This document shows, piece by piece, positions 45,876 to 50,016 of a DNA stretch of 50,016 nt. Within the stretch, counting starts at the first letter, position 1, and each line of letters begins with the position of its first letter. Where the stretch lies: positions 1 through 50,016 of the forward strand of contig JAGGSQ010000040.1 of assembly GCA_021159015.1 (NCBI GenBank), given 5' to 3'. The translations under genes were made by a program, and so were the position numbers. Source of the DNA: Candidatus Omnitrophota bacterium (GTDB lineage: Bacteria; Omnitrophota; Gorgyraeia; Duberdicusellales; Duberdicusellaceae). The notes beneath the pieces are model-generated. The model did no database searches. It worked only from the letters and a program-made list of their open reading frames with translations, and had not been told where the DNA came from.

Positions 45876-46874
45876 TTACTGGTATATCTTTTCCTCTACT
45901 TCTTTCCTTATTTCTGCAAGAAGTTTCTCATTGGACTTAAGGACTTCTTTCGCCTGCTGAAGGCCCTGGGCAATTTTGCTTTCCTTATAAGAAAACCAGC
46001 TGCCGGATTTTTTGACAATGCCCAAATCAATAGCGCAGTCAATCATATTGCCGATTTTGGAGACGCCTTCCTTGTAGAGAATTTCAAAATGGGCTTCTCT
46101 AAAGGGAGGCGCAACTTTATTTTTCACTACTTTGGCCCTTACTTTGGCGCCAATATTTTTGTCCTGATAGGTAATGTTTCCGGTTTTTCTCAAATCAATT
46201 CTTACTGAGGCATAAAATTTTAAAGCTCTGCCGCCGGGAGTAGTTTCGGGATTGCCAAACATCACGCCGATTTTCATCCTTATCTGATTGATAAAAATCA
46301 CGCAGGTCTTTGACTTGCTGATAGCCGCCGTAAGTTTTCTTAAAGCCTGCGACATAAGGCGCGCCTGCAGGCCTATTTGGGCTTCTCCCATATCGCCTTC
46401 AATTTCCACCCGCGGCACAAGTGCGGCTACGGAATCAATTACGATAATATCAACAGCATTGGAACGCACCAGAGTCTCGGTGATTTCTAAAGCCTGTTCG
46501 CCGGTATCCGGCTGAGAGATAAGTAAATCTTCCAAATTTACGCCGATAACTTTGGCATAAGAAGGGTCAAAGGCATGTTCCGCATCCACAAAAGCCGCCA
46601 CTCCTCCTTTCTTTTGCGCCTCGGCTATAATGCTCAAAGTGAGTGTGGTCTTACCGGAAGACTCCGGTCCGAATATCTCTACCACTCTTCCCCGCGGCAG
46701 CCCCCCTATACCCAAAGCTTTATCCAAGGTGATAATTCCCGTAGGGATAGCTTCTACGTCAAGCTTTACGGAATCTCCCAGGCGCATTATGGCTCCTTTG
46801 CCGAATTCCTTTTCTATCTGGGAAAGCGCCAGCTCCAAAGCTTTTTTACGGTCGGAACTTACTTCTTTTTTCAT
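45876..46874 (-). CDS. recA: Recombinase RecA
   Basis: [115 protein letters not shown]. Confidence 0.98.
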
Positions 46875-46992: not shown

Positions 46993-47025
46993 TGCAACAT
47001 TTAAGGACGTACCTATTTGGTTGCA
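46993..47025. repeat. Palindromic repeat unit 1: TGCAACATTTAAGGACGTACCTATTTGGTTGCA
   Basis: 30/33 identical to 47028-47060; ends are inverted repeats TGCAAC/GTTGCA (extended CACCTGCAAC/GTTGCAGGTG at 46989-46998/47020-47029). Confidence 0.9.
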
Positions 47026-47027
47026 GG

Positions 47028-47060
47028 TGCAACATATAAGGACGTACCTGTATGGTTGCA
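47028..47060. repeat. Palindromic repeat unit 2: TGCAACATATAAGGACGTACCTGTATGGTTGCA
   Basis: 30/33 match to unit 1, period 35 nt. Confidence 0.9.
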
Positions 47061-47111
47061 GAAGGACTTTGAGGAATGCCGCATTGAAAAATACCGCAGA
47101 AATGATATATA

Positions 47112-47406: not shown

Positions 47407-48321
47407 ATGGATATACCGGTTGTAATTGATGCCAAGAAAGGCAAAGAGGCAGCAAAACTTCTTTACAATTCTTTTTCAACAACAGGAATTCATGGAAAAA
47501 CGGAAATGCCGGAAGACTTAATTCCTGCAGGAATTAAGAAAGGCTCTATTGAACATATAATATTTTTAACTCTTACTGTTGCTATAGATTATCAAAGAGA
47601 TGCTCCCTCACTCTGGGAAAGTTCTAGAAAGACTTTCAATGACCCAAAAACAAATTATTTGTTCAACCCAAAATTACTATCTGAGGCTTCTTTTGAAAAA
47701 GTTGCCAACGATATGCAAAAATATAAACTCTCAAAAAAGCCGGACAAAGATGCCCGTATCTGGCAAACAATCGGAACTACTTTTTACAAGAAATGGAGAG
47801 GTAACCCTATCAATTTTCTTGAGAACTGCCGTTGGGACGCTTTAAATATTCTAAAATGTTTAGAAACCGACTCGCACTTATATAACGAAGAAATAGTTCC
47901 GGATTACCCATACCTACGCGGCCCTAAAATAGGCCCATTGTGGCTAAGAATGCTAAAAGATAATGCCGGTATAACACTATTGAGAAACCTGGATAAAGTC
48001 CCTATTCCTGTAGATATTCATGTAGCAAGGGCAACATTAGCAATCGGCATTGTAAGAGGATCCGTTAAAACTAAACTAGATAAATTATTCGAATACATAA
48101 GAAAAGCCTGGTTCGAGAGTGTAAAAGGGCTAAATATCAGAAATAGACAGATGATCGCCTTAGATTTAGATGAACCTCTTTGGCATTTGTCAAAATATGG
48201 ATGTTCTAAACGGGATAAAACAACAAATTCCTGTCCTGTTTTCAATAAATGTGAAATGAAAGAACTTTGTATTAAAGGAAAAATTTATATAAATAATAAT
48301 ATCGTAGATTTAGAAACATGA
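47407..48321 (+). CDS. HhH-GPD DNA glycosylase-like protein with C-terminal 4-Cys (putative Fe-S) motif
   Basis: HhH-like YLRGPKIGPLWLRML followed by VPIPVDIHVARATLAIGIV (HhH-GPD Asp region); C-terminal YGCSKRDKTTNSCPVFNKCEMKELC = C-x9-C-x5-C-x5-C. Confidence 0.7.
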   Translation: MDIPVVIDAKKGKEAAKLLYNSFSTTGIHGKTEMPEDLIPAGIKKGSIEHIIFLTLTVAIDYQRDAPSLWESSRKTFNDPKTNYLFNPKLLSEASFEKVANDMQKYKLSKKPDKDARIWQTIGTTFYKKWRGNPINFLENCRWDALNILKCLETDSHLYNEEIVPDYPYLRGPKIGPLWLRMLKDNAGITLLRNLDKVPIPVDIHVARATLAIGIVRGSVKTKLDKLFEYIRKAWFESVKGLNIRNRQMIALDLDEPLWHLSKYGCSKRDKTTNSCPVFNKCEMKELCIKGKIYINNNIVDLET

Positions 48322-48770
48322 AAACCCTTTGCATAATCCCTTGTGGCAGTAAAAAAATCTGGGACAAAAATCCAAAGGCTGGCCCCACTAAGGCAAAAGA
48401 CGTATACATCGGACAATTCGCCAAAAAATGTAAAGAATACGCAAGTAAATTCTATCCTTCTTCTTGGTGCATTCTTTCTGCAAAATATGGCTTTTTATTT
48501 CCGGATGATATAATTCCTAGACCTTATAATGTTAGTTTCAATAATAAAGCAACAAATCCCATAACTAAAAAGGAGTTATCTATCCAAGTAAAAGAAAAAA
48601 GATTGTATAATTATGAACAGATAGTAATATTGGGAGGGGAAAATTATGTAAAAGCATTACGTGACACCTTCTCATCGAAAAACATTCTTAGTCCACTAAG
48701 CGGTTGCAAAGGGATAGGATATATGATGAAAAAGCTTAATGATGCGATTCAAAAAGGTATTCCTTTATAG
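48318..48770 (+). CDS. DUF6884-type (YaaA-like) protein
   Basis: LCIIPCGSKKIWDKNPKAGPTKAKDVYIGQFAKKCKEYASKF..WCILSAKYGFLFPDDIIPRPYNVSF..QIVILGGENYVKALRD; ATGA overlap with preceding gene. Confidence 0.78.
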   Translation: MKTLCIIPCGSKKIWDKNPKAGPTKAKDVYIGQFAKKCKEYASKFYPSSWCILSAKYGFLFPDDIIPRPYNVSFNNKATNPITKKELSIQVKEKRLYNYEQIVILGGENYVKALRDTFSSKNILSPLSGCKGIGYMMKKLNDAIQKGIPL

Positions 48771-48888: not shown

Positions 48889-49634
48889 TTACGCCTGCAC
48901 AAATTTATGAGGTTTTACAACATCTTGATAAAATATAGATTCATATCCAAAAACTCTGGCAGTTTCAGCTAATTCACTTCTGGTGGTAGAACCAAAATAT
49001 CCTTTTTCTTTATCAAATTCTTTCGCATTTATAACTATTGTTTTCTTACCTTTCTTAAAATTTTGGAAATATCTCTCCAGTATTCTATACGCCCTTGAAC
49101 CTGACTGTTTTGCTAAATTAGTATGAGGCAACACTTCCCTTAGATAATCAAATTTATTAAAGATTCTCTAGCATATTTTTTATCTATTAACACATTGTTA
49201 TTGTACTTGTGCACAGAATATCCGTATTTTTTATCCCTAATTCCTGACACTCCTTCTGACAACTTATATTTATGTTTACTGACAATTCTTTTTATATCCT
49301 CAGCAGTAATTTCTTTACATCTAATACCTACCTTTTTAAGAAATACTATCTTTTCTTCAGGTATAGAGTTAGCATAAAGAATCAATCTTATCTTTTCCTT
49401 AGGACTAATAGTCTTAATCATCCCATAATATCCAACAATCTGACCAATAACTTTTCTTTTAAGAATACCCCTTTAAACTTCAACAATAATTCCTCTGCCC
49501 TTTCTATCTATAAAAACAATATCAGCAACCAACTTCCCTATCTGCACCTGCTGGCCTTTCAACTTAAACCCTTCATCAGGAAAAAATTCTTCCGGATAAC
49601 GGGCAATTAAATTCTCTATGTCTTTTTCAAGCAT
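48889..49634 (-). pseudogene. Disrupted NucS/DUF91-like PD-(D/E)XK endonuclease
   Basis: Frame from ATG at 49634: MLEKDIENLIARYPEEFFPDEGFKLKGQQVQIGKLVADIVFIDRKGRGIIVEV*RGILKRKVIGQIVGYYGMIKTISPKEK... TAA at 49473-49475; continuation frameshifted near 49159-49162 into FNKFDYLREVLPHTNLAKQSGSRAYRILERYF.. Confidence 0.8.
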
Positions 49635-49652
49635 TGTTAGTCCTCATTCCGT

Positions 49653-50016
49653 TTAACTTAATAGCTCATATCTCTCTTTCCAAAGAGCCTCAATTTCTTT
49701 AAAAATCATAGGAAGGTATTTCTTTTGATGCCTTTTTACTACCATATTATATATTTCGCCAAATCTTCCAATGCGAAAAATCCTATCTTCAAAAGTGAGA
49801 TTTTTTATTTTCCATTTAACATTTATAAAATTAGCATGGGGATTATTTTTATTTCTAGTTCTTTCAAAACCCTGTTCGACAGAGAAATATGCTACTTTTC
49901 CATCTTTAGAAAAAACCCTACCAATAGCCAATACTTTCCGCAAACCCTGTTTAGCGACAATAATATCACCTTCTTTTACTTCTTTTTTTTTTTTTTTAAA
50001 CCCTTTTCCCTTCTCA
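49653..50016 (-). CDS. Partial EVE/McrB-N-like domain protein, runs off the window
   Basis: Frame stays open to the window edge: ..EKGKGFKKKKKEVKEGDIIVAKQGLRKVLAIGRVFSKDGKVAYFSVEQGFERTRNKNNPHANFINVKWKIKN.. The track start at 49943 is an internal TTG. Confidence 0.55.
   Translation of the reverse strand, partial: EKGKGFKKKKKEVKEGDIIVAKQGLRKVLAIGRVFSKDGKVAYFSVEQGFERTRNKNNPHANFINVKWKIKNLTFEDRIFRIGRFGEIYNMVVKRHQKKYLPMIFKEIEALWKERYELLS
49983..49997. repeat. 15-nt T/A homopolymer within a coding frame
   Basis: T15 on + strand (A15 on the coding strand, five Lys codons). Confidence 0.9.

Follow-up and report, generated by a model that had tools for sequence, protein, structure and literature searches.

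The window examined here, a 50,016-nucleotide stretch of a Candidatus Omnitrophota contig (JAGGSQ010000040.1), carries close to its downstream end two overlapping plus-strand genes that encode an HhH-GPD glycosylase homologue (gene 1) and a protein of the DUF6884 family (gene 2). The explanation considered best, although held with a little less than even confidence, is that this pair is a putative horizontally spread base-excision module directed against modified, plausibly 7-deazaguanine-containing, virus DNA. Relatives of gene 1 are paired with DUF6884 genes beyond chance, and the recurrence of the two families together in other genomes, on which an earlier note on this DNA had staked its proposal of such a pair, was observed both as adjacency and as fusion.

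The paired genes and their relatives

The two open reading frames (ORFs) encode 304 and 150 amino acids and share the bases ATGA, exactly at the position and with the junction first described (Table 1), an overlap that suggests translational coupling. Between the related loci L004 and L006 (L002-L114 label the loci compared, and A7, A8 and A9 the alignments), the ratio of nonsynonymous to synonymous substitution rates was 0.056/0.27 and 0.056/0.21 for the two genes, indicating purifying selection on both, which are therefore not chance ORFs.

In the window and at L004, L006 and L029, a DUF6884 gene lies immediately downstream of gene 1. The two genes converge at the haloarchaeal loci L008 and L037, and at L003 and L034 the DUF6884 neighbour survives as a pseudogene. 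In L045 both are joined through a linker into one fused gene, whereas the L005 fusion has no linker and may stem from an assembly indel of one base, so that the case for fusion depends chiefly on L045 and on two fusions to AGOG genes (L056 and L064). In a set of 18 genomes that encode relatives of gene 1, DUF6884 genes above the cut-off number 11, of which 9 adjoin or are fused to these relatives, with an adjacency probability of 3e-21, a rough figure that presumes independent genomes. Among 120 genomes, each of the four true AGOG genes above the cut-off has a DUF6884 partner 54-59% identical to gene 2, either as the next gene or in fusion, and in a survey of 348 genomes the ten strongest window-type DUF6884 loci all adjoined or were fused to AGOG (eight, including the four from the 120 genomes) or gene 1 relatives (two). 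The genomes in these sets are partly related, and the counts are not independent. At L065 an apparent transposase separates the two genes of the pair, and in L053 and L056 the AGOG protein bears an N-terminal DUF7664 (PF24701) domain. At L030 and L032, which lack an adjacent DUF6884 gene, the divergent neighbour encodes an endonuclease-IV-like TIM barrel (below the Pfam cut-off when that of L030 was tested), and an HNH protein gene lies near L031. A YaaA/DUF6884-like gene is also present at L032 (6419-7240, minus strand).

Single-sequence searches left gene 1 under the Pfam gathering scores of both AGOG (PF09171; 18.2 bits against 26.1) and Q_salvage (PF10343; 12 bits against 25). When a profile of 15 sequences was run against the whole set of PDB sequences, Pa-AGOG (1xqo) came first (E 0.001), followed by endonuclease III and ROS1, and hhalign comparisons, whose E values are those of single comparisons, matched this profile with AGOG over 62 columns (E 1.2e-7, probability 94%) and with an archaeal Q_salvage-like family over 210 columns (E 7.3e-9, probability 96%). 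The latter HhH-GPD family of about 300 amino acids (L107-L114) bridges DUF2419 and the window's family, and its own profile retrieves human DUF2419 (7ugk) with an E value of 0.0015. Owing to the profile similarity to known members and the conserved HhH and GPD aspartate, gene 1 is placed in the HhH-GPD superfamily, where it forms a family of its own between AGOG and the Q_salvage-like proteins. The HhH-GPD relationship that the earlier note had proposed is thus borne out by profile comparison, not by a confident fold, with closest relatives that it had not named. Foldseek searches are only supportive because the AlphaFold2 model is weak (predicted local distance difference test, pLDDT, of 55): the first 13 matches were HhH-GPD enzymes (DUF2419, EndoIII, MagIII), headed by DUF2419 enzymes, and none was significant (no E value below 0.1). 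The link that had been suggested to the alpha-glutamyl/putrescinyl-thymine pyrophosphorylases found no support, as no such Pfam family matched at E values up to 10.

The HhH motif, the GPD-like aspartate and the C-x9-C-x5-C-x5-C spacing of gene 1 are present as first read, the last being indeed unlike the C-x6-C-x2-C-x5-C of EndoIII and MutY, and all three elements are kept in archaeal and other bacterial relatives of 65-69% identity. Lys174 and Asp203, the latter within the segment VPIPVDIHVA, belong to the small set of residues that never vary across the 15 diverse members of the family, including three haloarchaeal ones from which the cysteine loop is missing; this loop is a possible Fe-S or Zn site. 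AGOG is a bifunctional enzyme with an active-site lysine and aspartate (PMC8061334). Its aspartate is matched by Asp203, which aligns to the PVD of AGOG, and Lys174 was likened to the lysine of the AGOG sequence FAMKC by eye only, outside the aligned columns.

Gene 2 is a true member of DUF6884 (PF21818; 62.4 bits, E 6.6e-17, gathering score 30), in agreement with the pattern recognised earlier, and the CxxxK and LSAxxG motifs of the family vary little or not at all in A8 and A9. Its match to YaaA (PF03883) stayed below the gathering score (19.5 bits against 29.6), and that to the PADLOC models of DpdC was weak and partial (16.1 bits). Pfam's authors relate DUF6884 to YaaA and show a model of the family with a flipped nucleotide (PMC11701544). 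Structure prediction for gene 2 gave a confident fold (pLDDT 93.8), and Foldseek returned a single high-probability match, AF0587 (2q07; probability 0.96, template modelling score 0.46, E 0.012). The function of this protein is listed as unknown; a possible link to archaeosine synthase was not confirmed. Archaeal DUF6884-like ORFs of about 584 amino acids were considered as archaeosine synthases and rejected, L073 being a DUF6884-AAA ATPase fusion by Pfam. Such proteins (L072-L078, for example L073:226-1977 on the minus strand) occur in several archaeal genomes and carry the DUF6884-like domain N-terminally to an AAA_15/AAA_21 ATPase, as shown by Pfam for L073, with the other ORFs being of similar length; the architecture looks defence-like.

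Horizontal spread and genomic surroundings

Gene 1 was not found in the 57 nearest relatives searched, and among 286 genomes of the window's phylum it occurs only in the window's own. Counting fragments, the Methanoliparum phylum has it in 12 of 397 genomes and the Nitrospirae phylum in 4 of 246. The relatives of 65-69% identity belong to a Nitrospirae metagenome-assembled genome (MAG), unassigned bacterial MAGs, Methanoliparum and a Methanosarcinales MAG, and in the tree the window's gene 1 falls inside a supported clade with both bacterial and archaeal members. The G+C content of gene 1 and gene 2 is 0.35 and 0.34 (0.28 and 0.30 at third codon positions), against 0.43-0.45 (0.41-0.47) for recA, alaS, hisD and degP. 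The absence of gene 1 from those 57 relatives, together with the high A+T content of both genes, marks the pair as a horizontally acquired module. Adjacent or fused, it recurs across bacteria and archaea, and broken copies of one or both genes (L003:8909-9130, L034:2207-3563, L036:2305-3373) point to repeated loss. No gene 1 relative was found in IMG/VR or phage records, and plasmids yielded one distant relative, which led to a second.

Several related loci have a defence-like setting. PADLOC models identified HmaB/HmaC beside the L045 fusion, PglX/BrxHI/PglZ of a BREX system beside L035, and GajA/GajB of Gabija beside the L007 remnant. Reading of ORFs added an IrrE-domain protein and genes resembling type III restriction-modification and DUF262 at L004, type I restriction-modification-like genes at L037, and a DUF3800 protein at L002.

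In the window itself, the pair is bracketed by recA (45876-46874, minus strand; named by sequence) and the contig end at 50016. The "EVE-like" and "nuclease-like" remnants reported around the pair were not confirmed, as the downstream ORFs tested (48889-50015) matched no Pfam family above the cut-off and neither an EVE domain nor a nuclease was found, although a nuclease remnant may be among them. Two 34-nucleotide tandem repeats lie at 46993-47061, between recA and the pair, and the repeat core is dispersed, with 15 matches in the genome at up to two mismatches compared with none for a control pattern.

Table 1. Positions of the features discussed, in window coordinates unless a locus label is given.
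Feature	Position	Strand	Basis
Gene 1, HhH-GPD glycosylase homologue, 304 amino acids, its own family between AGOG and Q_salvage	47407-48321	+	profile comparisons, alignment
HhH-like motif PYLRGPKIGPLWLRML (residues 168-183), with invariant Lys174 at 47926-47928	47908-47955	+	15-sequence alignment
HhH-like stretch YLRGPKIGPLWLRML	residues 169-183 of gene 1	+	translation
IPVDIH (residues 200-205), with invariant Asp203 at 48013-48015	48004-48021	+	aligned to PVD of AGOG and EndoIII
Four-cysteine loop, Cys266-x9-Cys276-x5-Cys282-x5-Cys288	48202-48270	+	translation
ATGA overlap of gene 1 and gene 2	48318-48321	+	identical junction in L004 and L006
Gene 2, DUF6884 protein, 150 amino acids	48318-48770	+	PF21818, 62.4 bits; model pLDDT 93.8
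CxxxK motif, Cys9-Lys13 of gene 2	48342-48356	+	Cys and Lys invariant in A8 and A9
LSAxxG motif (LSAKYG), residues 53-58 of gene 2	48474-48491	+	alignments A8 and A9
Short ORFs, possible gene remnants at contig end	48889-49134, 49140-49421, 49653-50015	-	no Pfam match above cut-off
True AGOG followed by or fused to DUF6884	L053:1055-2649, L054:1486-2704, L056:1093-2742, L064:3-1502
Endonuclease-IV-like (AP_endonuc_2) gene divergent from glycosylase homologue	L030:10404-11267; L032:8141-9031	+; -
DUF6884 genes of viral 7-deazaguanine clusters	L096:4989-5465, L098:667-1092, L099:2282-2707, L103:6001-6435 (phiFN37), L105:5986-6387 (HRTV-29)

The 7-deazaguanine link and competing explanations

A concrete candidate for the substrate comes from viruses. 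Six viral contigs encode gene 2 relatives, and in L096, L098 and L099 the DUF6884 gene is clustered with genes for QueC, QueD, QueE and FolE, L096 and L099 having DpdA-like genes as well; the L096 cluster was checked by Pfam and PHROGs, the other viral clusters partly by reading ORFs. In the Fusobacterium phage phiFN37, DUF6884 is flanked by a DpdA-like gene on one side and a queuosine-precursor transporter on the other, and in the Halorubrum virus HRTV-29 it overlaps dpdA. The DUF6884 protein of such clusters is a candidate for the unassigned dPreQ0-converting enzyme of these viruses. The Q_salvage superfamily, for its part, acts on a 7-deazaguanine nucleotide (as taken partly from PDB titles). 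Because of these viral clusters and the relation of gene 1 to that superfamily, we infer that 7-deazaguanine is the best candidate substrate, and the earlier suggestion that the pair may recognise or process a modified base stands as the best-supported reading, to which the clusters give a specific base. DpdC, which converts 2'-deoxy-7-cyano-7-deazaguanosine (dPreQ0) in DNA to 2'-deoxy-7-amido-7-deazaguanosine (dADG), has been assigned to DUF6884 or DUF328 (PMC11888242, PMC12839542). Modifications of this class shield phage and archaeal-virus DNA from restriction, and in HVTV-1 the 7-aminomethyl derivative dPreQ1 replaces about 30% of guanine (PMC6884629, PMC8651126).

In the proposed mechanism, the gene 1 protein would flip a modified guanine out of invading DNA, break the N-glycosidic bond of the flipped base and, via Lys174, might nick the strand by beta-elimination in the manner of AGOG. 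Gene 2 would supply a second base-handling step: it might convert or unmask the group at position 7 of the base, in the way that DpdC acts on dPreQ0 and BapA serves Brig3, or might alternatively hold the flipped base or the abasic site. The most likely target would be 7-deazaguanine-hypermodified viral DNA, and the resulting abasic sites and breaks would halt virus replication. A bolder version, in which the pair is an immune system dedicated to such DNA, with DUF6884 recognising or editing the 7-substituent and the glycosylase excising the base, would bring the first defence glycosylase of the HhH-GPD kind and an answer to the preQ0/dpd strategy of phages and archaeal viruses; this is a serious possibility but an unlikely one.

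Several observations weigh against a base-excision module aimed at viruses. Several loci (L002, L014, L030, L031 and L033) have no neighbouring DUF6884 gene, and the AlphaFold2 model of gene 1, built from six close sequences, is poor. The defence setting, seen at several related loci, does not extend to the window, whose flanks hold no recognised defence gene up to the contig end 1.2 kb downstream of the pair; within the same limit, neither dpdA nor dpdB was seen beside the pair, and no preQ0 gene was seen adjacent to the cellular modules. Of the viral DUF6884 loci examined, only about half belong to 7-deazaguanine clusters: no such genes occur near DUF6884 in L097, L100, HRTV-19, BDU-MI-1 or the Caulobacter phage examined, and the viral locus L101, although similar to these clusters, has a weak match. 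Two further facts fit DNA repair too, namely the pairing of DUF6884 with true AGOG, an enzyme that repairs 8-oxoguanine (PMC8061334), and the presence of the Bacillus subtilis DUF6884 protein YfjM among the binders of abasic and ribonucleotide lesions (PMC11701544).

The strongest of the rivals is DNA repair, although it is judged rather unlikely. The pair would then carry out base excision repair of oxidised guanine or a similar lesion, with gene 1 as the glycosylase/lyase and DUF6884 as its abasic-site- or lesion-binding partner, in keeping with the two facts just mentioned and with the divergent endonuclease-IV-like gene adjoining two gene 1 relatives. Housekeeping repair genes, however, would not usually be so patchily distributed, pass between archaea and bacteria, decay often into pseudogenes or sit in a defence setting, and the related viral DUF6884 genes often accompany 7-deazaguanine genes, not repair genes. 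It is quite improbable that the pair installs, edits or polices a modified base in the carrier's own DNA, as a self-modification or restriction-modification system resembling a dpd island: DUF6884 has been assigned to DpdC and stands beside DpdA in viruses, and HmaB and BREX methylases are found as neighbours, but a glycosylase would remove a base rather than install one, and the cellular pairs show no DpdA, DpdB or preQ0 gene beside them. A role in salvage, with gene 1 as a Q_salvage-type nucleotide or nucleoside N-glycosidase freeing a 7-deazaguanine base for processing by DUF6884, is given a similarly small chance; the relationship over 210 columns and the non-significant DUF2419 matches of Foldseek speak for it, whereas the IPVDxH motif and cysteine loop resemble DNA glycosylases, no transporter or tgt neighbour was seen, and the setting is that of a defence island.

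Comparison with known systems

Hypermodified DNA is a main viral route around restriction and CRISPR. The counter-defence provided by Brig1 and Brig3 is directed at cytosine modifications and uses a uracil-glycosylase fold. If the virus-directed base-excision reading is true, the HhH-GPD and DUF6884 pair would broaden this strategy to another glycosylase fold and probably to modified guanines. DUF6884, a domain that occurs in DpdC, beside AGOG and in the 7-deazaguanine clusters of phages, would then gain a role open to testing, and one may ask whether some archaeal AGOG enzymes are antiviral instead of repair enzymes. Defence glycosylases of the Brig type are already known, as is a DUF6884-like protein of the PADLOC candidate system PDC-M57. 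Gene 2 matches this protein, PDC-M57A, with an E value of 5e-20; gene 1 matched no PADLOC model at an E-value limit of 1, and no paper naming PDC-M57 was found. The literature searched, with most subscription papers outside its scope, yielded no account of a defence glycosylase of the HhH-GPD kind, nor of DUF6884 as a partner of AGOG or of AGOG relatives.

Among the HhH-GPD enzymes, AGOG (PF09171) resembles gene 1 in its IPVD motif and downstream DxxLW element, which align, in a lysine preceding the aspartate, and in the DUF6884 partner that some AGOG genes share. Gene 1 differs in its longer N-terminal half and in the four-cysteine loop, unseen in the aligned AGOG sequences (A7), and profile similarity is confined to about 62 columns. 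Q_salvage/Qng1 (DUF2419, PF10343) belongs to the same superfamily, and it is the archaeal branch L107-L113 that aligns over 210 columns, but gene 1 has the AGOG/EndoIII-like IPVDxH and the cysteine loop, and its genomic context is not one of salvage. Endonuclease III and MutY share HhH-GPD homology, a VDxH motif and a C-terminal four-cysteine loop with gene 1, in which the cysteine spacing is x9-x5-x5 rather than x6-x2-x5 and sequence similarity to them is very weak.

On the side of gene 2, DpdC and the DUF6884 proteins of phage 7-deazaguanine clusters belong to the same DUF6884/DUF328 superfamily and act on, or adjoin enzymes for, 7-deazaguanine in DNA; gene 2 matches the DpdC profiles weakly (16 bits), and its partner is a glycosylase instead of DpdA/DpdB. 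As to the mode of action, the R.PabI base-excision restriction enzymes (PMC10273834) likewise achieve immunity by excising a base followed by apurinic/apyrimidinic-lyase cleavage, but these have a HALFPIPE fold, are sequence-specific and are paired with a methyltransferase. Brig1 and brig3-bapA (PMC11078745, PMC13160076) also employ a defence glycosylase, and brig3-bapA is, like the pair described here, an overlapping two-gene operon with a base-processing partner. The Brig enzymes, however, belong to the uracil-DNA-glycosylase superfamily and target (glucosyl-)5-hydroxymethylcytosine, and BapA has been modelled as a two-beta-barrel protein rather than a DUF6884 fold.
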